A DNA stretch of 64,000 nt from Desulfurivibrio alkaliphilus AHT 2 (GTDB lineage: Bacteria > Desulfobacterota > Desulfobulbia > Desulfobulbales > Desulfurivibrionaceae), in the NCBI RefSeq assembly GCF_000092205.1, contig NC_014216.1, positions 992,001 through 1,056,000 of the forward strand, written 5' to 3'. This document shows, piece by piece, positions 12,120 through 25,958 of the stretch. The stretch's first letter is position 1, and each line of letters begins with the position of its first letter. A model generated the notes under the pieces. It ran no database searches and had not been told where the DNA came from. It saw only the letters and a list, made by a program, of their open reading frames with translations. Both the position numbers and the translations under genes were made by a program.

Positions 12120-13883
12120 TTAGAATACGCCCTTAACCTTGCCGGTTTCCACGTCGACATCGATCCGGCGGTAGGCGGGATCGGAGGCGGTACCGGGCAT
12201 CAGGCTGATGGCCCCGGCCACTGGCACGACGAAACCGGCCCCCTTGTAGGTAAGGATGTCGCGCACCGGCAGGGTCCAGCCCTTGGGTACACCCTTGAGG
12301 GTCGGGTCGTGGGACAGAGACAGATGGCTCTTGACCATGCAGGTACCCATTTCCTTCATCTCCGGGTCGGCTTCCATACGCTTGAGCTTGGCCTTGGCAT
12401 CCGGGGTGTAGCTGACGCCGTCGGCCCCGTAGACCTCCTTGGCGATCAGTTCGATGCGTTTTTCAAGCGGGGTGTCCAGCTCGTAGAGGAAACGGAAATC
12501 GTTCTCTTCCTCGCAGGCATCCACCACCGCGTCGGCAAACTCCAAGGCCCCGTCGCCGCCGTGCTCCCAGTGGCGTGACAACGCCACCCGGGCCCCGGCC
12601 GCTTCGCAGAGCCGCCGTACGGCCTTGATCTCGTTGTCGGTATCGGTGTAGAAGGCGTTGATGCAGACCACCGGATTAATCCCGGCCTTCTTGACCGTTT
12701 CGATGTGATGCAGAAGGTTCTTGCAGCCCTCTTCCACCCAGCCGACGTTCTCCTTGCCGTACTCTTCCGGCATGGGCCGGCCCGGTACGGGGATGGGGGC
12801 ACCGCCGTGGCACTTAAGCGCCCGGATGGTGGCCACCACCACCGCACAGTGCGGCTTGAGCCCGGAGTAGCGGCACTTGAGGTTCCAGAACTTCTCAAAA
12901 CCGATATCGGCACCGAAGCCGGACTCGGTAACGTTGTAATCGGCCAATTTCAGGGCCACCCGGTCGGCGATAACCGAACTCTGGCCAATGGCGATATTGG
13001 CAAAAGGACCGGCGTGCACCACCACCGGCTGACCTTCCAGGGTCTGCATCAGGTTGGGGTTAAGGGCCTCCACCATCCAGGCGGTCATGGCCCCGGCCAC
13101 GTCCAGATCGGTGGTGGTGATGGGCCGATCCTGCTTGTCGTAGGCCACCACGATCTTGCCGATCCGCTCACGCATGTCCTTGAGATCCTTGGCCACCGAG
13201 AGGATGGCCATGATCTCGGAGCTTACCGCGATGGCAAAGCTGCTCTGCATGTTGAAACCATCCATCTTGCCGCCCTGGCCGATGGTGATGTTGCGCAGAG
13301 CCTGGGCGCAGTAATCGATGATCCAGTTGAACTCCACCTTTTTGGGATGGATATCCAACCGTTTCAAGCCGCGTTTGGCCAACTGCTCGTCGGTGTAATT
13401 GGCCTCGTGCTGCATCCGCGAGGTAAGCGCCACCATGCCCAGGTTGTGGGCGTTCATAATGGCGTTGATATCACCGGTGAGCCCCAAAGAGAACGGGGTC
13501 AAGGGGATGCACTGCGCCAGACCGCCGCCGGCGGCGGAACCCTTGATGTTCATGGTCGGACCGCCGGAAGGCTGGCGAATGGCGCCCACCACCGACTTGT
13601 TGCGCTTGCCCAGGCCCTGGACCAGACCCATGGCGCAGGTGGACTTGCCCTCGCCCAAGGGGGTGGGGGTGATGGCGGTGACATCGACATACTTGCCGTC
13701 GGGCTTGTCTTTGCAGCGATCCAGAATCTTGCGGTAGTCGAGCTTGGCCACGTAATGGCCGTGGGGCAGCAGTTCCTCTTTTTGCAGGCCCAGCATCTCG
13801 CTCAGCTCGAAGACGTCTTTCATGCGGCTTTCCGCCTCTTCCGCAATTTCCCAGTCCGCATGTTTGGTCGGATCTAATGCCAT
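12120..13883 (-). CDS. fhs: Formate-tetrahydrofolate ligase
   Basis: A 587-residue ATP-dependent ligase making 10-formyl-THF from formate, the entry step of the acetyl-CoA pathway methyl branch. The P-loop is TPLGEGKST; further signatures are [20 protein letters not shown] and [13 protein letters not shown], and the C-terminus carries [15 protein letters not shown]. Start ATG 13883 has GGAGGGAAACACC upstream. It stands alone, with a clear terminator downstream, although folD, metF and cooS lie only 8 kb away on the same strand. Confidence 0.97.
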
Positions 13884-17412: not shown

Positions 17413-18198
17413 TCAGCCAAGCCGGTAGGTAACCGGGACCACCAGGATGGCCCTGGCCGGGGGACTGGGGAAGGGAGCTGATTTTTTTATGGTCTGCACG
17501 GCATTGTCATCCAGCAGGGAGAAACCGGAGCTTTCCATCACCTCGATGTTTTCCACCCCGCCGTCTTCCAAAATAACAAAGGAAACCAAAACCTTACCCT
17601 CCCAACCCATGCGCCGGGCCAGGCGCGGATAAACAATCCCCCGCTGGATCTCTTCCATGATGTAGTGGAAGTTGACCTCGAGATACTGGTCAACCAAAGG
17701 AGGTTCGGTGGGCGGCGATGGGCCGCCGGCCGGACCGGCGGCCAGCTCCTCGGAAGGGGCGCTGGCCCCCGGTCCGATCTCGGCAAGGCTCTGTGGCGGA
17801 GAGAATGGTTCGGGGCCGGCCGCCGGCGCCTGCTCCGGCAACTCTTGCGGCAGGGGTGGCACTGCCACCGGCGCCGGTTTCGGATCCGGTTCGGGTTCCG
17901 GTTCCGGTTCGGGCTCCGGTTCGGCAATGGGTAGTAGTACCTCGGGTTCACTTTTCAGCGGCTTAGCCGCGGCCAATTCCACCGACGGCTTCACCGGTGG
18001 CTCAACAGGGGCCACCGCCACCTCTGCAACTGCCGGCGGCGCCGGTGCCGCCGCCGGACCGGGGCCGTGGCTGATGGAAAAATCGATGACCAGCAGGTCC
18101 GGTTCGGTGGGAGTCAACCGCACCATCGCCACCAGCAACAACACCAGTGCTCCGTGCACCAGGCAGGAAATGATAAGGCCGCGCCACCGGTAACTCAT
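17413..18198 (-). CDS. tonB: TonB energy-transducing protein
   Basis: A 261-residue inner-membrane protein: one N-terminal transmembrane helix (LIISCLVHGALVLLLVAMV), a long periplasmic Pro/Glu-rich spacer with repeated PEPEPE, and a C-terminal TonB domain (IVYPRLARRMGWEGKVLVSF through FPSPPARAILVVPVTYRLG). It carries the ExbB/ExbD proton-motive energy to outer-membrane receptors. It overlaps exbD by 4 bp and is the last gene of the run that starts with a TonB-dependent receptor. Confidence 0.94.
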   Translation of the reverse strand: MSYRWRGLIISCLVHGALVLLLVAMVRLTPTEPDLLVIDFSISHGPGPAAAPAPPAVAEVAVAPVEPPVKPSVELAAAKPLKSEPEVLLPIAEPEPEPEPEPEPDPKPAPVAVPPLPQELPEQAPAAGPEPFSPPQSLAEIGPGASAPSEELAAGPAGGPSPPTEPPLVDQYLEVNFHYIMEEIQRGIVYPRLARRMGWEGKVLVSFVILEDGGVENIEVMESSGFSLLDDNAVQTIKKSAPFPSPPARAILVVPVTYRLG

Positions 18199-18575
18199 GA
18201 AATCTTTTCGGTCTGCAGGCTGACCCGGGTAAACCCGAGCTCTTTAACCACATCCATCACCTCCACAAAGGTCTGCAGGGCAATGGAACGGTCAGCCTTG
18301 ATCAGAATGGGCAGGGAGCGCTCTTTATGCCCCAGGCTCCGGCGCAGTTCGGCCAGTGATACCTCCCTGGCCTCAAGATAAAGATTGCCCCGGGCATCAA
18401 CTTCAATGGTGCTCGGCTCTAACGGTGCGGCTTCCGACGAGGCGGCCTCCGGCAGTTGCACCGGAATGGCCCCGGCGGCAATAAAGGTCGAGGTGGTGAG
18501 CACGATCACCAGCAGAACGAGCATTACATCCACCAGCGGAATCACGTTCATGTTGTTGAAACCCTGCTCATCCAT
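18195..18575 (-). CDS. exbD: ExbD-family biopolymer transporter
   Basis: A 126-residue protein with one transmembrane helix near the N-terminus containing the essential aspartate (IPLVDVMLVLLVIVL) and a periplasmic domain ending in KELGFTRVSLQT. It forms the TonB motor with ExbB. Overlaps exbB by 8 bp and tonB by 4 bp. Confidence 0.95.
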   Translation of the reverse strand: MDEQGFNNMNVIPLVDVMLVLLVIVLTTSTFIAAGAIPVQLPEAASSEAAPLEPSTIEVDARGNLYLEAREVSLAELRRSLGHKERSLPILIKADRSIALQTFVEVMDVVKELGFTRVSLQTEKIS

Positions 18576-18990
18576 GCCTGATCTCCCAGTTGGTTACCAG
18601 TACCTTTACCCGCCGCTGCAGCAGGTTGTAGGCGGTCACCGCCGGAATCGCCACCAGCAACCCGGCGGCGGTTACTTTCAGGGCCAGGGACAGGCCCACC
18701 ATAATCTGACCGGCATCCATCCGGCCGCTGGCCCCCATGTCGTAAAAGGTCAGCATAATTCCCAGAACGGTGCCCAACAGCCCCAGGTAGGGGGCATTGC
18801 GGCCGACGGTGCCGATCAGGTGCAGATTACCCGTCAACTCCAGTTCCAGCTTTCTCTTATCCTTGAATTCATCAAGCCGCAGGTTCCGGTAAACCATGAG
18901 CCGCTCGATGACGATGGCCAGCACCACGATGCTCATCAGGATGAGCAAACCGATAATGCCGTAATCTACCGTATATTTAATCCAATCCAT
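18568..18990 (-). CDS. exbB: ExbB/MotA/TolQ-type proton channel
   Basis: A 140-residue, rather short ExbB: a first transmembrane helix (IIGLLILMSIVVLAIVIE), a cytoplasmic loop, then two helices in the conserved block APYLGLLGTVLGIMLTF and KVTAAGLLVAIPAVTAYN. It provides the proton path for ExbD/TonB. It lies 62 bp below the TauE/DsbD-like gene in the same orientation. Confidence 0.95.
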   Translation of the reverse strand: MDWIKYTVDYGIIGLLILMSIVVLAIVIERLMVYRNLRLDEFKDKRKLELELTGNLHLIGTVGRNAPYLGLLGTVLGIMLTFYDMGASGRMDAGQIMVGLSLALKVTAAGLLVAIPAVTAYNLLQRRVKVLVTNWEIRHG

Positions 18991-19052
18991 AACAACTCAC
19001 CTCCTGCCGTAACAATCAATTTGGACTCGCTAAAACCGCCACCGGCACCTCG

Positions 19053-19667
19053 CTAAACCGCGGTGAGCAGCCGCCAGCCCATGGTCAACATAATCAGCAT
19101 ACAGGCACCCTGCAGCCAGGGCTTGATTCCGGCGCATTGCCGCCGGATTTGCTGGCCGATCAGGGCCAGTCCACCGCCGGCGATAAGCAGCGGAGAAATC
19201 ATCAAGGCCGTGCCGTAAAGCAGCCCGTAACCGCCACCGGCCAGCCAGGAGCCGCTGGCTGCAGCCAAAACCAGAATGGCCGCCAGCGGTGGACAGGGGA
19301 CCAAGCTGGTGGCCATACCCAGCAACAGCAACGAGCCCCGCTTACCCGCCTGCGCCGGCCGGGGCCGGCAACCCTCTTTGGCAAACAGCGGCAGCAGCAG
19401 GGCCGCCCCGATCAGGGCCAGGCCAGGGATGAGCCGCTGCTGTTCGGCCCCGATGGTCAGCACCTGCCCCAGCAGCCCGGCGACGGCCCCCAGGAAGGCG
19501 TAACTCAAGGCCTTGCCCAACATGAAGAAAAGGGCCGCCAACAGCCCGTCGCGAAAACCACTGCCACACCCCAGCAAGTAGGGCCCCAGCCAGGGCAGGC
19601 AGCTTAAACTGCAGACCGTGGAACCGTACGCCAGCCCCAGCAGGAAAATACCCGCCGGCTCAAGCAT
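19053..19667 (-). CDS. TauE/SafE- or DsbD-like polytopic membrane protein
   Basis: A 204-residue protein with about six hydrophobic helices. The first carries STVCSLSCLPWLGPYLLGCG and the fourth ATSLVPCPPLAAILVLAAA; this C-P placement resembles the CcdA/DsbD transmembrane domain and related exporter families. It could move reducing equivalents or a sulfur or metal species across the inner membrane. The ATG at 19667 overlaps the stop of the activator ATPase gene. Its place in the receptor/double-cubane operon is its best functional clue. Confidence 0.78.
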   Translation of the reverse strand: MLEPAGIFLLGLAYGSTVCSLSCLPWLGPYLLGCGSGFRDGLLAALFFMLGKALSYAFLGAVAGLLGQVLTIGAEQQRLIPGLALIGAALLLPLFAKEGCRPRPAQAGKRGSLLLLGMATSLVPCPPLAAILVLAAASGSWLAGGGYGLLYGTALMISPLLIAGGGLALIGQQIRRQCAGIKPWLQGACMLIMLTMGWRLLTAV

Positions 19668-20484
19668 TTTCCCCTTCCCCCTCGCCGGCCAACTCTTCGC
19701 CGGTCTCCAGGGCCAGCAGGGCCGCACCTAAAGCGGTGGTGATCTGCGGGGTGGGCGGCACGATCACCGGCCGCATCAGTTCATCTTCCAGAGCCGCCAC
19801 CAACCCCTGGTTGCGGGCCGGCCCACCGTCGAAAAACACCGCGCCTTCGCCGGTAAAACGTTTGGCCAGCCTGGCCACCCGTTTGGCGATGGAATAATGC
19901 ACCCCGGCGATCAGTTCCTCTTTGCCGTGGCCATTGGCCAGCAGGCTGATGATTTCCGACTCGGCAAAGACCGTGCAGGTGCTGTTGATGGTCAGGGGCA
20001 CCCCCTGGGCCCGCATATGCAACGCGCCCAGCTGGTCCACCTCCACTTCCAGGTTGCGCGCCGTCATCTCGAGGAAACGGCCGGTACCGGCGGCACACTT
20101 GTCGTTCATGGCAAAGTTCTGGATCTGCCCCTCCCCGTCCAACTGGATCACCTTCAGGTCCTGGCCGCCGATATTGATGATGGTCCGCACCGGCTCCCCT
20201 TCCCGGCTGAAGGCCACCGCCCCTATGGCATTGGCGGTTATCTCGCTGATGGTCTCATCGGACTCCTTGAACAACTTACGGCCGTACCCGGTGGAGAAGA
20301 TATAGGCCACATCTTCACGCTGCAATTGATGATCGGCCAGCAAGCCGGCAAAGGCATTCATGGTGTTCTGATGGAAATGACTACCGGTTGGGCAGGTGGC
20401 GTCGGCCACCAACCGTTGCTCCTGATCCACCAGCACCAGCTTGATACTGGTGGAGCCGATATCGATGCCGCCGTAATATTTCAT
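19660..20484 (-). CDS. ATPase activator of a 2-hydroxyacyl-CoA dehydratase-like enzyme (BadF/HgdC family)
   Basis: A 274-residue actin-fold ATPase. It opens GGIDIGSTSIKLVLVD and contains NIGGQDLKVIQLD, NDKCAAGTGRFLEMTA and FAESEIISL. The cysteines in NDKCAAGTG and STCTVFAESE are those that bind the bridging [4Fe-4S] cluster of the homodimeric activator. These proteins use ATP hydrolysis to push an electron to a very low potential in a partner. It overlaps the double-cubane-like gene by 4 bp (ATGA), so partner identity is clear by context. Confidence 0.92.
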   Translation of the reverse strand: MKYYGGIDIGSTSIKLVLVDQEQRLVADATCPTGSHFHQNTMNAFAGLLADHQLQREDVAYIFSTGYGRKLFKESDETISEITANAIGAVAFSREGEPVRTIINIGGQDLKVIQLDGEGQIQNFAMNDKCAAGTGRFLEMTARNLEVEVDQLGALHMRAQGVPLTINSTCTVFAESEIISLLANGHGKEELIAGVHYSIAKRVARLAKRFTGEGAVFFDGGPARNQGLVAALEDELMRPVIVPPTPQITTALGAALLALETGEELAGEGEGENA

Positions 20485-21776
20485 ATTTCCCTCTTTTTCC
20501 TGGCCGTCTTTCTCTTGCGAGCCTTGATCGACTCAATAAAGGCCTCCACCCGGGTGGAAAGCTGGCCCGAGTCCTCGGGGCTGTAATCGGTTTCCACATA
20601 GAGCATGGGAGTTCCCCGGGCGCTCAAAATTTCATTGACCTGCCGGCGTTCCATCTCATAGGGCAGACAACCGGAAAAGGCCTGGTAAACCACGCCATCC
20701 ACCGCAAATTCGTCGATCATGGCGAGCAGCTTGCGCAGGCGGTCGTGGTTGGGGGTCAGACAGGGGCAAGTGCATGGTTTCAGGTAACGGTCGGCCACCG
20801 CCGGCACCATATCATTGAGCCCCGCCTCGTCATAGGCCACGGCATCGGAGAGCAGCCGGGTGGAAGAACATGACTCGTCGGCGACGATGATGCCGCCGGA
20901 TTGCTCCACCAGCACCGGCAGTTTGAAGTTGGGAAAGATCGGCGGCGAACCGGTAAACAGCAGCCGCGGTGCCCGCCGGTTGGTAACCCGGACCTCTCCC
21001 TGGCGGCGCTGCTCAAGCTCGGCCAGCAACGCCTCCACCGCCTGGCACCAGCGCTCGATATCGGCCAGAAAATAGGCGTTGTAGACCAAAAACAGGTCGG
21101 ATCCCAGGATCAGGGGCGGGCGGTTGCCCCGCAGGCGGTGCAACTGCCGAAACAGGGCCGCCGCCCGGCCCACCTGGCCAATGGCCTGCCTTAATCCGGC
21201 GGCGGTTACCCGGCGGCCGACCATGCGCTCCAGGGCGATGGCGAACTGCTTGACCGACTCCTGCCAGTAATACCGGGACAGCTCACTATCCTTGCCGGCC
21301 GGCATCTCCAGGCTGTAAACCGGGTAGCCCAGGGCGGCAAGCTGTTCGCAGGCCTTCTTTTTCTGATCGCAGGTGGTGGGCACCACCACCCCGCCCAGGT
21401 CCTCCCCCCACAAAGACTGGTTAAGCTTGAGCATCCCCAGGGTGGAGCGCACCACCGGGCAGGATTTGGCGGGCATGAATTCGGCCCCCACCTGATCGTA
21501 AGCATTAGCGCCGCTGCACAGCCGCCAGGGGTATGCGCCGACGGCCAGGATCAACTCCTGGGGCACCTGCATGCACATGGTGGCGACAATTTTACGCCCG
21601 CCGGCCAATGAGGCCGGCCCCGCACCATTGGCCAGATCACGGAACAGGGAATAAAAATAGTCCATGGCCGCCAGCCGTTCGGGAAATTCCGCCAACCTTT
21701 GCAGGGTCTCCTCCCCTTCCATGGCCAGATGCAGCCGGGTGGTTTTGCGCATCCGCTGCCCTAATTCATGTTCCAT
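20481..21776 (-). CDS. Double-cubane cluster / 2-hydroxyacyl-CoA dehydratase-like reductase
   Basis: A 431-residue HgdB-family protein. Cysteines that can bind an Fe-S cluster are C68, C87, C106, C136, C143, C303, C335, C337, C339 and C370, with family blocks PTTCDQKKKACEQL, DESCSSTR and SGCLPYEMER. A single such gene with one activator, rather than a two-subunit dehydratase, fits the double-cubane protein subfamily, which performs ATP-driven reductions of small molecules. ATG 21776 follows AGGAAAAACA. It sits between a polyferredoxin gene and the activator gene in an operon led by a TonB-dependent receptor. The substrate is unknown. Confidence 0.88.
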   Translation of the reverse strand: MEHELGQRMRKTTRLHLAMEGEETLQRLAEFPERLAAMDYFYSLFRDLANGAGPASLAGGRKIVATMCMQVPQELILAVGAYPWRLCSGANAYDQVGAEFMPAKSCPVVRSTLGMLKLNQSLWGEDLGGVVVPTTCDQKKKACEQLAALGYPVYSLEMPAGKDSELSRYYWQESVKQFAIALERMVGRRVTAAGLRQAIGQVGRAAALFRQLHRLRGNRPPLILGSDLFLVYNAYFLADIERWCQAVEALLAELEQRRQGEVRVTNRRAPRLLFTGSPPIFPNFKLPVLVEQSGGIIVADESCSSTRLLSDAVAYDEAGLNDMVPAVADRYLKPCTCPCLTPNHDRLRKLLAMIDEFAVDGVVYQAFSGCLPYEMERRQVNEILSARGTPMLYVETDYSPEDSGQLSTRVEAFIESIKARKRKTARKKREI

Positions 21777-22761
21777 TGTTTTTCCTGTCCATTCGTTTAA
21801 AAAAACCTTCAGCGGTGGAGCTGTACACCGGCAGGGTCAGGAATCTGGCCTGCAGGCAGTCATCCTCCGGGCAAACCTCGATGCATTTGCCGCACATCAT
21901 GCAGTCGTCCTGGACGATATTGTAACTCTCCAGGTCGTCGGCGATGGCTCTAATGCCCACATCACAGGCCCGGTAGCAGTTGCCGCAGCGGGTACACTTG
22001 GCACCGTTTTTGGTCAGCCGCAACAGCCCGAGCCGGGAAAAGATATAGTGGAAAGCGCTCATGGGGCAAAACAGGCAGAAAAAGCGGGGCTTGACCAGCG
22101 AGCCGATAATAAACAGACCGGTGATCGCCATCCCCAGGGCGGTCAGGGTCAATTTGGCCACCGAGCTGAAATCGATGGCCAGCTGGCTGAAATCGCCGGC
22201 GAACAGCGGCAGGATGGTACGCCCCGGGCAGATCATGCAGAATGGCACCCCCCAATCGTGACTGAGTTTGGGCAGACCGAAAAAACTGTTGCCGATGGCC
22301 ATGGGAATCAGGATCAGCAACGCCAGCAGGATATATTTGATTTTGCCGAGGCGCTGAAAAACCGGCTCGGAGTAGGTGGCGGGACGGATTTTCAGCTTGC
22401 GCCGCAAAGCGCTTAACCAGTCCTGGATGGTCCCCAAAGGGCAGACAAAACCGCACCAGGCCTTGTTGAAGAACACAAAAAAGGCCACAAAGGTGGCCAG
22501 GCCGATCAAAATCGCCATCCCGCGGCCGCCGAACCACTCCGGCCAGGGGGTGACCATCTGGTGCTGGAACCCCAGCAGGTAGCAGGCGCCGCCGTGCAGG
22601 TCGCTGTACAAACAGGCAAAGGTGGGCAAATGATTACCGACGTTGATGGCCAGGTAACCACCATATATCAGCAAGGCAAAGGAAAAGAGCTGCACATGAA
22701 AACGGAACCGGCTGAGGTTGCCGCGGTTGACGGCCCGTTGCAGGTTTTTCAGGCTATTCAT
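21766..22761 (-). CDS. NapH/NosR-like membrane polyferredoxin
   Basis: A 331-residue inner-membrane protein with about five transmembrane helices, two C-x3-C-P loops (WCGFVCPLG, FCLFCPM) and two C-terminal [4Fe-4S] motifs (CTRCGNCYRACDVG and CMMCGKCIEVCPE). Such proteins pass electrons from the quinone pool or cytoplasm. ATG 22761 is used with a GGGGGG tract upstream. Overlaps its upstream and downstream genes by a few bases, so it is probably the electron donor or acceptor for the double-cubane module; the direction of flow is not evident. Confidence 0.9.
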   Translation of the reverse strand: MNSLKNLQRAVNRGNLSRFRFHVQLFSFALLIYGGYLAINVGNHLPTFACLYSDLHGGACYLLGFQHQMVTPWPEWFGGRGMAILIGLATFVAFFVFFNKAWCGFVCPLGTIQDWLSALRRKLKIRPATYSEPVFQRLGKIKYILLALLILIPMAIGNSFFGLPKLSHDWGVPFCMICPGRTILPLFAGDFSQLAIDFSSVAKLTLTALGMAITGLFIIGSLVKPRFFCLFCPMSAFHYIFSRLGLLRLTKNGAKCTRCGNCYRACDVGIRAIADDLESYNIVQDDCMMCGKCIEVCPEDDCLQARFLTLPVYSSTAEGFFKRMDRKNNGT

Positions 22762-23776
22762 CAAAAACAACCCCCCGATAGGGCCGCCGGCGTCGTTCCC
22801 GGTATAGGTAGACCCCGCCCCCGCCGGCGATCATCATCGTGGCCGCCAGCAGCAGCCCGGAGGCGTAGGAGGAATACTCCCGCTCCGGCGGGGAATAGAC
22901 CCAGGGGTGGGTGATTTGATAACTGACTGCGCCATAGGGCTCACCCCGGAACTCGCCTGTTTTTTCCGTCCGCCAGCGGGCGCTTACCTCGAAGGGGCCG
23001 CGATGGCTGCGCCGAAACTCCTGCCACAGCGAGGGGTAGTAATCGCGGATCAACTGGATGCGGGCCATCCCCTGTTCATCGCTGGTTACTGTTTTCCGCC
23101 AGCCCTGCTCGGTGGTGAGGGTTACTTCGGCCCCGGCCACCGGCGCCCCGTAAGAAAGCACGGTGATCCGCAAGTTGTCGCCGGACCTCACCGCGGCGTG
23201 AAAATTGCGGCTCCAGAGATCATCCACTACGATTTCAAACGGCACCGTGTCGAGCTGTTGAGGGTTGATCAGGTCCGGATTGAACTTCCCGTCATGGCCC
23301 CAACGGCAGCTGTGGTGCATGGTGATCCATTTGGCCACCCGCACCGCCAGCACCCCGTCTTCAACCCCCTCTTCCACCAGATAAACGTTATGGGCGCCAT
23401 GGGTCGGGCCATCCCCCGGTGGGGTGGCAAAAGTCAGCCGGGGGCTGGCCCCCAGGATCAGCTCCGGCTCGAACACCGCCCCGTCGGGCCGGCGGACATA
23501 TGCCCTGATCGCGGCCCCGCGCCGGTACTGGTTGAGATGATAGGTACGCTGGGAAACCGGGCGGTGTTCCGATTCCAGCCTCGGCCCACCGTTACCCCGT
23601 CCCCCGCCATGCCCGACATGCCCCTCGGCACACTCCTCCCCCGCCGCGGCGGCCGAATCAACCGGCGGGGCCAGGGTAAGGCGCAGGGGTGGCAATTCGT
23701 CGGCCACCACCGCTGACAGCAGCCCAGGTAGCAACCAAAACATCAGCAGCAGTGCTGTCTGGCGGACGACCACCAT
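22754..23776 (-). CDS. Exported DUF4198-like periplasmic protein with C-terminal membrane anchor
   Basis: A 340-residue protein with a signal peptide (VVVRQTALLLMFWLLPGLLSAVVA), a His/Gly-rich patch (HVGHGGGRGNGG), a beta-sandwich-like region with GAPVAGAEVTLTTEQG, and a C-terminal transmembrane helix (ASGLLLAATMMIAGGGGVYLY) followed by basic residues. The pattern resembles DUF4198/carboxypeptidase-regulatory-like proteins that accompany metal-uptake receptors. The start ATG at 23776 overlaps the receptor stop (TAATG), which favours it over an upstream TTG. Histidines MHHSCRWGHD could bind metal or haem. Function not established. Confidence 0.78.
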   Translation of the reverse strand: MVVVRQTALLLMFWLLPGLLSAVVADELPPLRLTLAPPVDSAAAAGEECAEGHVGHGGGRGNGGPRLESEHRPVSQRTYHLNQYRRGAAIRAYVRRPDGAVFEPELILGASPRLTFATPPGDGPTHGAHNVYLVEEGVEDGVLAVRVAKWITMHHSCRWGHDGKFNPDLINPQQLDTVPFEIVVDDLWSRNFHAAVRSGDNLRITVLSYGAPVAGAEVTLTTEQGWRKTVTSDEQGMARIQLIRDYYPSLWQEFRRSHRGPFEVSARWRTEKTGEFRGEPYGAVSYQITHPWVYSPPEREYSSYASGLLLAATMMIAGGGGVYLYRERRRRPYRGVVFDE

Positions 23777-25839
23777 TACCCGTTGCCCCCCCAACGGTAG
23801 GAAAGTCCGGCAAAAAAGGTCCGGGGTGAGCCGGAGTACAGCCCCATGCCGGTAACACTGGTTGAACTTTCAGAAACATAGCTGGCATACTCCTTGTCGG
23901 CCAGGTTGTTGACGTGGGCCCACAACGACCAGCTCTGCCAATTGTAGGCCGCCCGCAGATTGAACAGGGTCGGCCGGGAATAGGTCAACTCGTTGGCGTT
24001 ATCGGCGTACTGCTGGCTGATCTCATCCATTTCCAGCTCGACCTCGAAACCCTCGTAAGGCAGGACGGTCAAGCGGAGATTGAGCCGGTGTTTGGGCGAG
24101 CGCGGCAGCCAATTGCCGGAGTAGTCGACCCCGGCGTCACGGAAGCGGTCGAACTTGTTCTCGGCGTAGGTGTAAGACATTCCCAGCCTGGCCCAGGCCA
24201 CCAGGGCGTAATCGGCGGCAAGCTCCAGGCCGGTATGCTCGGTCTTGGCGGCATTGCGGTACTCCGAGGTAAAGGGACCGGTGGTGACGTCGACGATTTT
24301 TTCCCGGATGGTCATATGGTAGAGGGCCAGATCGACGCTGGCCCGGCCGTCAAGGAGAATGCTACGCAGCCCGACTTCATAGTTGTCGGCCTTTTCCGGG
24401 TCCAGATCGGGATTGCGCAACCGCGAGGTAAAGAGCTGGCTGGTGGTGGGCACCACAAAACCCTGGGAATAGCTGCCGTAGAGATTGAGGTGGGGCAAGG
24501 GATTGTAGGTTAAACCCACTTTCGGGCTAAGGCGGGAAAAACTCTGTTTTCCTTCCATGCCGGCAGTACCCAGCAGGTTATCGGTTAAATCGTAGCGAGC
24601 CCAGTCATAGCGGGCTCCCGCCTGCAGTTTGAGATTATCGCCCAGCCGGCGATCAAGCTGCAGGTAAGGCGCCGCCGCGTCGGTTTCGATATCATAGGAG
24701 TCCCGCAGGCCGGTTACCGTGTAAGAGGTATATTTTTTGCTCACCGGATCGCGGGTTACCGCCAGGTTGTATACCTCGGCCTCATGCTTGCTGGTCTGCA
24801 GATCGAGCCCGCTTACCAGTTGGCTTTCAACGGAGGGAAGCTCCCGGGCATAGAGCAGTTGCAGGTCGATGTCATACCCCTCGATGTCGGAATAGGTGCT
24901 CAGGGCCTGGACATTGGGGTCACCGAACACCGGCCGGAAGCTGTAACCGGGATAGACCACATGGTCGATCCGACGATAGCCCAGGGTAAGGTCGAAATCA
25001 CCGCCGGCCAGGTCGGTGGCGTATGAAATCGCCGGCGCCACCTTTTCCATTTCCACATTGGCGAAGGTGTGATAACTCTGCTGCCAGTCATCGTTGAAAT
25101 CCTGCTCATCCAGGGAACCGGCGGTGTTGTTGTCGAACTTGACATAGTCAAAGTTGAAGGTCCAGATGGAGGCCCCGGCGGTAAAGTGTTGCAGTCGGAT
25201 ATTGGCCGCCTGTCGTTTGCTCTCGGTGTTTTCCCGCCAACCGTTGCGGTCTTTGAAGTTGAAATCAACGTTGTAGCTCAGCGATTGGGAGGTGCCGCTG
25301 GCATATGCCCCGCCCCGGTATTCATCATACTCGCCGGCCTCGCCCCAGGCGGTGACCTGCGGCTGGGCGGTGGGTTTTTTGGTGATCAGATTGATCACCC
25401 CGCCGATGGCATTGCTGCCGTAAAGGGCCGAGGCCGGCCCCTTGACCACCTCGATTCGTTCAATATTGGCACTGTTGATCTCGCGAAAGTTGACCCCGCC
25501 GCTGCCGTAAGTTCGGCTGGGGCGGCCATCGATGAGCACCAGGGTGTAGGGATTGGTGAAGTGGGTGGGCACCCGGATGGAGGTCAGTTCCTCATCGCCG
25601 CCGAAGTTGCTGGTCAGGACCCCGGGCACCCGCTGCAGAATTTCCCCCGCATTACGGTATTTGACCCGCTCCACCTCGTCCTGGCCGATGACCTCGATGG
25701 TGGCGGTGGAATCCTGCCGCTGTTCTTCAATGCGCGACGAGGTTACCACCACCTCACCCAGTTCACGTTTGATCTCTCCGGCCAGGGCCGGTCCGGCCAG
25801 AGCCCCGACGGCTACAATGGTGATAACTCCCCGTTTCAT
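23776..25839 (-). CDS. TonB-dependent outer-membrane receptor
   Basis: A 687-residue receptor: signal peptide (residues 1-20, ending PALA), a candidate TonB box GEVVVTSSR, plug domain (IEVIGQDEVER through INLITKKP) and a beta barrel with a TonB-dependent receptor C-terminal segment. It resembles colicin I receptor/BtuB-type receptors; ligand is unknown. ATG 25839 has GGGGAGAGTGGG upstream. It is the first gene of the nine-gene operon, and a strong 15-bp palindrome lies about 85 bp upstream of the start. No substrate-binding protein or ABC transporter is present, so the inner-membrane step is unclear. Confidence 0.93.
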   Translation of the reverse strand: MKRGVITIVAVGALAGPALAGEIKRELGEVVVTSSRIEEQRQDSTATIEVIGQDEVERVKYRNAGEILQRVPGVLTSNFGGDEELTSIRVPTHFTNPYTLVLIDGRPSRTYGSGGVNFREINSANIERIEVVKGPASALYGSNAIGGVINLITKKPTAQPQVTAWGEAGEYDEYRGGAYASGTSQSLSYNVDFNFKDRNGWRENTESKRQAANIRLQHFTAGASIWTFNFDYVKFDNNTAGSLDEQDFNDDWQQSYHTFANVEMEKVAPAISYATDLAGGDFDLTLGYRRIDHVVYPGYSFRPVFGDPNVQALSTYSDIEGYDIDLQLLYARELPSVESQLVSGLDLQTSKHEAEVYNLAVTRDPVSKKYTSYTVTGLRDSYDIETDAAAPYLQLDRRLGDNLKLQAGARYDWARYDLTDNLLGTAGMEGKQSFSRLSPKVGLTYNPLPHLNLYGSYSQGFVVPTTSQLFTSRLRNPDLDPEKADNYEVGLRSILLDGRASVDLALYHMTIREKIVDVTTGPFTSEYRNAAKTEHTGLELAADYALVAWARLGMSYTYAENKFDRFRDAGVDYSGNWLPRSPKHRLNLRLTVLPYEGFEVELEMDEISQQYADNANELTYSRPTLFNLRAAYNWQSWSLWAHVNNLADKEYASYVSESSTSVTGMGLYSGSPRTFFAGLSYRWGGNG

Positions 25840-25921
25840 CCCACTCTCCCCTTGCATGGTGATCTTGTCCGGTGATCAATTGATCGCGGTGACAATTAAA
25901 AGGGGAAATTATAACCGGCTT

Positions 25922-25958
25922 TGCCGGTGCGACAATGTGGCGAATTGTCGCACCGGCA
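25922..25958. promoter_or_regulatory. Perfect 15-bp inverted repeat upstream of the TonB receptor operon (candidate operator)
   Basis: TGCCGGTGCGACAAT (25922-25936) and ATTGTCGCACCGGCA (25944-25958) flank a 7-nt centre, about 83-119 bp upstream of the receptor ATG. The length and perfection suggest a dimeric regulator site or a leader hairpin. Half-sites point the opposite way from CRP/FNR-type TGTCG-N6-CGACA sites, so CooA/HcpR is not supported. Confidence 0.65.

Follow-up and report, generated by a model that had tools for sequence, protein, structure and literature searches.

A conserved operon pairing a TonB-dependent receptor with a double-cubane reductase in Desulfurivibrio alkaliphilus, a possible uptake-and-reduce system for a metal complex

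A stretch of 64,000 nucleotides (nt) from Desulfurivibrio alkaliphilus AHT 2 (NC_014216.1, positions 992,001 to 1,056,000; hereafter the window) carries on its minus strand, at 17413-25839, an operon of nine open reading frames (ORFs), which runs from the gene of a TonB-dependent receptor (start 25839) to tonB (end 17413). The operon may constitute a self-contained, redox-regulated TonB system, which takes up a metal complex and reduces it with electrons sent outward through a NapH-like membrane protein, a reading to which we give slightly less than an even chance. The gene set, its conservation and co-inheritance, the invariant residues, the predicted folds and the regulatory sequences were all observed and are the ground on which this reading is built. 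The novelty lies in the system as a whole, each part belonging to or resembling a known family. Text searches of the open-access literature (PMC) returned no described system of the same composition, in agreement with an earlier reading of the window from its letters alone (the sequence-only reading), which knew of none.

The sequence-only reading had listed the nine genes in this order, with most starts overlapping the preceding stop, and inspection of the ORFs bears it out: with the start codons chosen, seven of the eight gene junctions overlap by 1-11 nt, the exception being a 62-nt gap before exbB. Its receptor start at 25839 (an ATG after GGGGAGAG) was likewise judged better than the start of the longer ORF at 25857. 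The ORFs were called mechanically by scripts, and identities were drawn from domain (Pfam) and curated-family (TIGRFAM/NCBIfam) searches, with support given for every part (Table 1). The names exbB, exbD and tonB are upheld by their family matches, while the label "TauE/DsbD-like", given to the membrane protein encoded before exbB, was kept in its DsbD half (DsbD_2, 59 bits for a cut-off of 25) and dropped in its TauE half. A search at E 1 found no solved sequence related to the DsbD_2 protein. An Rfam scan of window positions 10000-34000 gave no match.

Table 1. Genes of the operon and the operator preceding it, in window coordinates (aa, amino acids).
Feature	Coordinates	Strand	Support
TonB-dependent receptor	23776..25839	-	PF00593 and PF07715; best match siderophore type, below cut-off
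Exported, C-terminally membrane-anchored DUF4198-fold protein (fold predicted)	22754..23776	-	Invariant H161, C163, H167, H199 (346-aa ORF numbering)
NapH-like membrane polyferredoxin	21766..22761	-	Fer4_5 and 4Fe-4S domains; 8 invariant membrane-part cysteines
Double-cubane cluster reductase (HgdB/DCCP family)	20481..21776	-	NF040772
BadF/HgdC-type ATP-dependent activator	19660..20484	-	TIGR00241; cluster cysteines C130, C170
DsbD_2 membrane protein, 4 mostly conserved cysteines, accessory	19053..19667	-	PF13386
ExbB	18568..18990	-	TIGR02805, 165 bits for a cut-off of 135
ExbD	18195..18575	-	PF02472
TonB	17413..18198	-	PF03544
Operator, 15-bp perfect inverted repeat with TGCGACAATTCGCCACATT (25934-25952)	25922..25958	-	RegA/PrrA/RegR-type, 95 nt before longer receptor ORF start

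By family score and aligned cysteines, the HgdB-like protein is a double-cubane cluster reductase, for which an [8Fe-9S] cluster and ATP-dependent activity are predicted. Its identification as a double-cubane protein, made at the outset, is confirmed by a score above the NF040772 cut-off (365 bits for 350). The protein aligns with PDB entries 7YYL (E 9e-70) and 6ENO (E 3e-69), and C68, C87, C106, C136, C303, C337 and C370 correspond, by alignment only, to cysteines of 6ENO and are invariant in 26 sequences. The BadF-type character of the neighbouring activator is equally well founded, with 236 bits for TIGR00241 (cut-off 125) and both cluster cysteines present in 26 of 26 sequences. A two-subunit 2-hydroxyacyl-CoA dehydratase or benzoyl-CoA reductase was ruled out, since such enzymes need two different HGD-D subunits and a search of the whole genome at E 0.001 found a single PF06050 (HGD-D) protein. 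In a tree of 50 rows built by a quick method (L061, L073, L078 and L081 omitted as fragments or for want of a double-cubane cluster protein, DCCP; loci and genomes are given by their L and G numbers), 39 NapH-linked and 11 NapH-free double-cubane proteins are split by a branch with support 100. The NapH-linked proteins comprise the nine-gene branch (support 98), the c6 branch (99) and the c3 branch (100), so that the tree for which the sequence-only reading had called places the window protein in a separate supported branch on the NapH-linked side.

The NapH-like protein marks the system and accompanies this branch of double-cubane proteins throughout. Its gene is found in 22 of the 257 genomes of the class, in all 22 adjacent to a double-cubane gene, and in an even sample of the phylum it is matched in 14 of 395 genomes. 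A double-cubane relative occurs in 112 of the 257 genomes (own genome included). Its identity is at least 52% in 17 genomes, and the rest form a second group at 41% or less, except for one 120-residue fragment at 44%. The NapH-like proteins are at least 53% identical in exactly those 17 genomes and 34-41% identical in the remaining 5.

The NapH-like protein shares with polyferredoxins of the NapH/NosR type its four hydrophobic segments, the cysteine pairs on the presumed cytoplasmic side and a C-terminal ferredoxin domain with two cluster motifs. It is 25% identical to E. coli NapH and reaches 92 bits for TIGR02163, below the cut-off of 213. Eight cysteines of the membrane part (C53, C63, C106, C110, C178, C181, C232 and C235 in the numbering of the 334-aa ORF) occur in 39 of 39 partners, counting rows longer than 250 aa and excluding L061 and L076 (fragments), L078 and L081. 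E. coli NapH, the one protein taken as a yardstick, has equivalents of C106/C110 and C232/C235 and is without C53, C63, C178 and C181. The ferredoxin domain of NapH lies on the cytoplasmic side; if that of the NapH-like protein does too, C106/C110 and C232/C235 would face the cytoplasm, while C53/C63 and C178/C181, by which the window protein differs from the NapH/NosR type, would face the periplasm. The simplest reading is that these four invariant extra cysteines provide, on the presumed periplasmic face, a further site for a metal or an iron-sulfur cluster, and the overall arrangement suggests an iron-sulfur wire through the membrane.

Conservation of the neighbourhood was followed in class genomes of the close group, to which were added bins labelled Thermodesulfovibrio, Nitrospirota, Gammaproteobacteria, Sedimenticola, Krumholzibacteriia and Polarisedimenticolaceae. 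The named relatives are all metagenome bins except L052; L052-L059, L067 and L068 repeat genomes already counted. In the 20 non-truncated relatives (L032, L034-L042, L044-L047, L060 and L062-L066, among which L065, of 9.6 kb, and L062, of 10.7 kb, are short and still counted; L033, L043 and L061, on contigs of 3.9-7.0 kb, were left out), the core of DUF4198-like, NapH-like, double-cubane and activator genes is present 20 times, the receptor 19 times (L066 shows none) and the complete set of nine in the same order 12 times. By comparison, a receptor was found at only 1 of 22 control double-cubane loci of the class without a NapH-like gene (L156, about 8 kb away), and the same query panel gave a NapH-like or DUF4198-type match in 0 of the 22, five of these stretches being only 5-13 kb long. 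The co-occurrence of receptor and double-cubane genes, which had been put forward as the check on a joint system, is thus maintained across relatives, and other genera show this gene order too. The position of the receptor varies: it is last in L042 and behind the core in L062. In L039 (counted as complete), the receptor match is split in two. Of the gene families other than these nine, none is shared by more than 5 of the 26 loci compared (antisense ORFs set aside).

The exported protein encoded after the receptor has a signal-like helix at its N-terminus and an anchor helix at its C-terminus. Its first description as DUF4198-like stands for the fold and falls for the sequence, since its score for PF10670 is 22.5 bits, below the gathering score of 34. 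The predicted structure (predicted local distance difference test, pLDDT, 82.7) is close to that of Zcp in its Cu-, Zn- or Co-bound forms (Z 17.2-17.5) and to the Ni-DUF4198 structure 9gcb (Z 14.4), the next row being at 8.7. The protein is therefore predicted to have the fold of the metal-binding Zcp and Ni-DUF4198. The four residues of Table 1, with the motif H-x-C-x3-H, are invariant in 20 DUF4198-like sequences. The DUF4198-like alignment A1 leaves out the L035 row, for which a mechanical ORF call had put the start in the wrong place. A profile search of PDB sequences with the DUF4198-like alignment gave chance matches only. On the basis of the modelled fold, the protein may bind the complex or the freed metal. 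According to an excerpt of PMC12537917, one DUF4198 protein binds nickel with a dissociation constant (Kd) of 18 nM, and genes of this kind are found next to TonB receptors; by this analogy, nickel is a candidate metal. In the c3 branch, the predicted structure of the anchored protein (pLDDT 72.7) again matches the fold of Zcp (Z 12.8, the next row being at 6.3); this protein has no BLAST match to the window protein and shows no invariant His or Cys. The c6-branch protein has weak sequence similarity to the window protein (34-41 bits).

The siderophore type (TIGR01783) is the best curated match of the window receptor (206.3 bits, cut-off 223.5) and of six other nine-gene-branch receptors tested, all below the cut-off; in three c3-branch receptors tested the heme type scores best, again below the cut-off in all. 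The genome holds two plug-domain receptors and two TonB_C proteins, the other pair being part of a riboswitch-BtuB-ExbB-ExbD-TonB-BtuF-BtuC set (BtuF and BtuC named from sequence and place, BtuC also by FecCD). For the BtuB family TIGR01779 (cut-off 599.7), this other receptor reaches 568 bits and the window receptor 162. The two operons are alike in giving a receptor its own ExbBD-TonB, and they differ in that the BtuB operon has riboswitch control and an ATP-binding cassette (ABC) importer, with no DCCP or NapH-like gene seen there. In this genome, the view of the ExbBD-TonB motor as dedicated to the window receptor is thereby sustained. Two FecCD permeases above the cut-off are encoded in the genome, both in the cobalamin region, and its four cobalamin riboswitches all lie at 1.83-1.87 Mb. 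A motor of its own and no evident ABC importer for the window receptor favour processing of the ligand in the periplasm.

Judged by its operator, the window branch would be under redox control of the RegA/PrrA type, with binding of the regulator predicted. When the 400 nt before the first gene were searched in 21 operons, the operator consensus was found at 2 mismatches or fewer before 12 and at 4 mismatches before 4 more (L042, L063, L064 and L066), while the best match among 200 shuffled versions of each of these stretches had 5 mismatches. In 16 genomes, 61 sites occur at 2 mismatches or fewer, against 0 for the reversed control. But for two mismatches (one in the NosL sites), the window site agrees with the RegR box GNGRCRTTNNGNCGC given in an excerpt of PMC5506826; the published boxes are degenerate. 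A RegA-like regulator with 62% identity to that of G014 is encoded in the own genome at 1.776 Mb, beside an ORF that is kinase-like (pair at 1.775-1.777 Mb). The G014 pair has ActS/PrrB/RegB and ActR/PrrA/RegA as its best NCBIfam matches, both below the cut-off (regulator 182.5 bits for 250). Elsewhere, sites of this kind stand before NosL genes, genes of C_GCAxxG_C_C redox proteins and kinase-regulator pairs. In G226, the receptor operon and a NosL-kinase pair are arranged divergently, each preceded by one such site.

Several further observations concern this operator. In the form TGCGACAATTTGCCACATT, it is found in 16 genomes of the class, where its regulon consists of NosL, C_GCAxxG_C_C proteins, regB-regA pairs and the nine-gene operon; the sites of the own genome are at 13676, 509659, 1017934, 2792809 and 3085935. 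Near another of the operator sites, at about 2.794-2.798 Mb of the own genome (L110:3798-8000), a very large activase-type protein is encoded, with BcrAD_BadFG twice plus DUF2229 and at least 1401 aa within the stretch. In L036, L037, L039, L040, L044 and L045, a second inverted repeat, CCAC-n3-GTG(G/A), is found upstream of the receptor, on the downstream side of the RegA-type site and at a distance of 8 to about 56 nt from it; it is absent from the window, and a second regulator is possible. The same operator stands before a TonB-copper-like receptor of G014 (L146:2978-5011), which has 248.5 bits for TIGR01778, below the cut-off of 472.5.

The more distant c3 and c6 branches link the module to cobalamin. 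Among their 19 loci (L081 without a recognisable DCCP, L078 with only a DCCP edge and L077 without a BadF match), a receptor is present at 9 of the 14 that are at least 9 kb long; L086, for example, has the order receptor, DUF4198, anchored protein, NapH-like, DCCP, activator, ExbB and TonB. Rfam scans, which covered all of the distant loci but L077 and all of the 23 nine-gene loci but L033, found cobalamin riboswitches at 7 of the 18 distant loci and in none of the 22 nine-gene loci, nor in the window. The riboswitch precedes the module in L073 (where exbB-exbD-tonB stands first after it), L074, L075, L080, L083 and L084; in L049, it stands before the receptor next to the module. Directly after the activator gene of L083 comes one for a CbiZ protein, which also has a weak periplasmic-binding match, and in L084 its homologue lies 1.7 kb further, while CobN-type chelatases are found in L048, L049 and L080. 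Together, these genes and riboswitches tie the module, in the sister branches, to uptake of corrinoids, cobalt or tetrapyrroles. The riboswitch-led operons of NapH-like, double-cubane and activator genes also place an ATP-driven double-cubane reductase within a B12 regulon in these members of the phylum. In L048, L049, L069 and L070 (G055 and G056), a c6-type module lies among genes for CobN-type chelatases, radical SAM and nitrilase-family proteins and a Gate-family membrane protein.

ATP-driven loading with low-potential electrons is established for the activator and double-cubane families. In the reading proposed here, the receptor, driven by its own ExbB-ExbD-TonB, would bring a complex of a class presumed from the gene set into the periplasm, where the DUF4198-fold protein could bind it, or the freed metal, through its H-x-C-x3-H residues. 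In the cytoplasm, the BadF-type activator would spend ATP and load the double-cubane protein with electrons, which the NapH-like protein, equipped with a pair of ferredoxin motifs and presumably a cysteine quartet on each membrane face, would pass outward, leading to reduction of the complex at the anchored DUF4198-fold protein and release of the metal. Where present, the DsbD_2 protein may be an accessory thiol conduit or metal permease. In the sister branches, the module seems arranged for the uptake of corrinoids, cobalt or tetrapyrroles; the window branch would serve another, non-B12 complex under RegA-type control. Copper was considered since NosL genes and the G014 receptor share the operator; it remains a candidate beside iron, nickel and cobalt and is not singled out, because reduction of Cu(II) needs no ATP-driven electrons. 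More generally, and more tentatively, the module might be an ATP-powered pump that drives electrons of very low potential across the inner membrane, through a periplasm-facing iron-sulfur site of the NapH-type protein, to TonB-imported metal complexes in the periplasm, with branches for corrinoids or cobalt (under cobalamin riboswitches) and for another metal complex (under RegA-type redox control).

A number of observations weigh against this reading. We infer the direction of the electrons, the ligand and the place of reduction from sequence. The window receptor is under every curated cut-off, and a third FecCD-like match exists at 0.813 Mb (22.6 bits, below the cut-off). Matches to ExbBD-TonB are missing beside the core in L062-L064 and L066, from other phyla, where the core and DsbD_2 are kept, and L047 has only receptor and core; the motor is thus not obligate everywhere. 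DsbD_2 is absent or a remnant in L032, L042 and L047 while the rest of the core is kept, hence it is not essential to the system. The receptor lies kilobases off on the other strand in L063 and L064 and is lacking in L066, and 5 of the 14 distant loci that span 9 kb or more show none. Furthermore, 5 of the 21 operons have no operator before them (L034, L047, L060, L062 and L065), and an operator of RegA type speaks for redox, not metal, control.

An inward course appears unlikely: here the ligand would go on to the cytoplasm, where the double-cubane protein would reduce it, and the activator would receive electrons from the quinone pool or the periplasm by way of the NapH-like protein. DCCP is located in the cytoplasm, and the potential of quinol is too positive for it to be the donor of a double cubane unless ATP does the whole work. 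The first of these points suits inward flow, as do the known cases of a soluble DCCP and activator (excerpt of PMC11971306) and the view, expressed in a portion of PMC8238504, that NapH proteins take electrons from quinol. The second tells against it, together with the extra cysteines of the NapH-like protein on the presumed periplasmic side and the want of an evident inner-membrane importer for the window receptor in the operon or elsewhere. Another reading, in which the window branch also serves corrinoids, cobalt or another tetrapyrrole as its sister branches do, is rather improbable. Cobalt(II) corrinoids do require electrons of very low potential (Co(II)/Co(I) near -0.6 V), and the riboswitches, CbiZ and CobN genes of the distant loci point the same way. 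However, the window and the 22 nine-gene loci scanned have no such riboswitch, the genome has a separate BtuB set and the window receptor scores far below the other one for TIGR01779, while the metal motif of the anchored protein was not found in the c3 branch. On the first three of these grounds, B12 uptake was rejected for the window branch and kept for the sister branches.

Very improbable, finally, is that one transcript combines two functions, TonB uptake and an unrelated, RegA-controlled redox task of the double-cubane protein such as stress defence or small-molecule reduction. The other members of the operator's regulon would agree with it, and so would the in vitro reduction of acetylene, azide and hydrazine by DCCP, whose physiological role is described as unclear in an excerpt of PMC11971306. 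Nevertheless, branches that differ in regulation and receptor type repeatedly have the receptor next to the module, and the riboswitches of the sister branches place the module itself in an uptake regulon.

The proposed system can be compared with those already described, the nearest being DCCP itself, the flavin-based PepSY-DUF4198 clusters and the HmuS heme system, none of which has the whole combination. The window protein shares with the DCCP of PDB 6ENO and 7YYL the double-cubane family, the aligned cysteines and an adjoining BadF/HgdC-type activator, and differs in lying in a separate supported branch with NapH-like, TonB receptor and DUF4198-fold partners. ApbE-flavinylated PepSY-DUF2271-DUF4198 clusters, some with TonB genes, are proposed for periplasmic iron reduction in the excerpts of PMC8238504 and PMC11870441. 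As far as those excerpts describe them, their loci too bring together TonB uptake, a DUF4198-type protein and electron transfer across the membrane, whereas the window operon has an ATP-driven double-cubane donor and a polyferredoxin instead; the domain search found no PepSY, DUF2271 or FMN-binding domain among its nine proteins. In the Hmu system of Bacteroides, as an excerpt of PMC12583661 presents it, an anaerobe likewise uses a TonB receptor operon to release the metal of an imported complex with the help of a reductant. There, the agent is HmuS, a CobN-like de-chelatase using NADH, while no CobN match was found among the nine window proteins or in the 23 nine-gene-branch loci scanned; L048, L049 and L080 do have CobN-like genes near the module. 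The operon family gives one double-cubane branch a concrete, testable setting in metal-complex uptake. If electrons do cross the membrane, cytoplasmic ATP would power periplasmic reductions below the reach of quinols, NADH and flavin systems, which would bear on metal and corrinoid acquisition by anaerobes in sulfidic, alkaline or metal-poor sediments.

Two minor observations were made among the relatives. The DCCPs and loci of L063 and L066 are nearly identical despite different phylum labels (Polarisedimenticolaceae and Sedimenticola bins), which may reflect a recent transfer or a wrongly assigned contig or bin label. In L060, from a Thermodesulfovibrio bin, a selenocysteine tRNA (L060:14598-14691) directly follows the nine-gene operon on the opposite strand.

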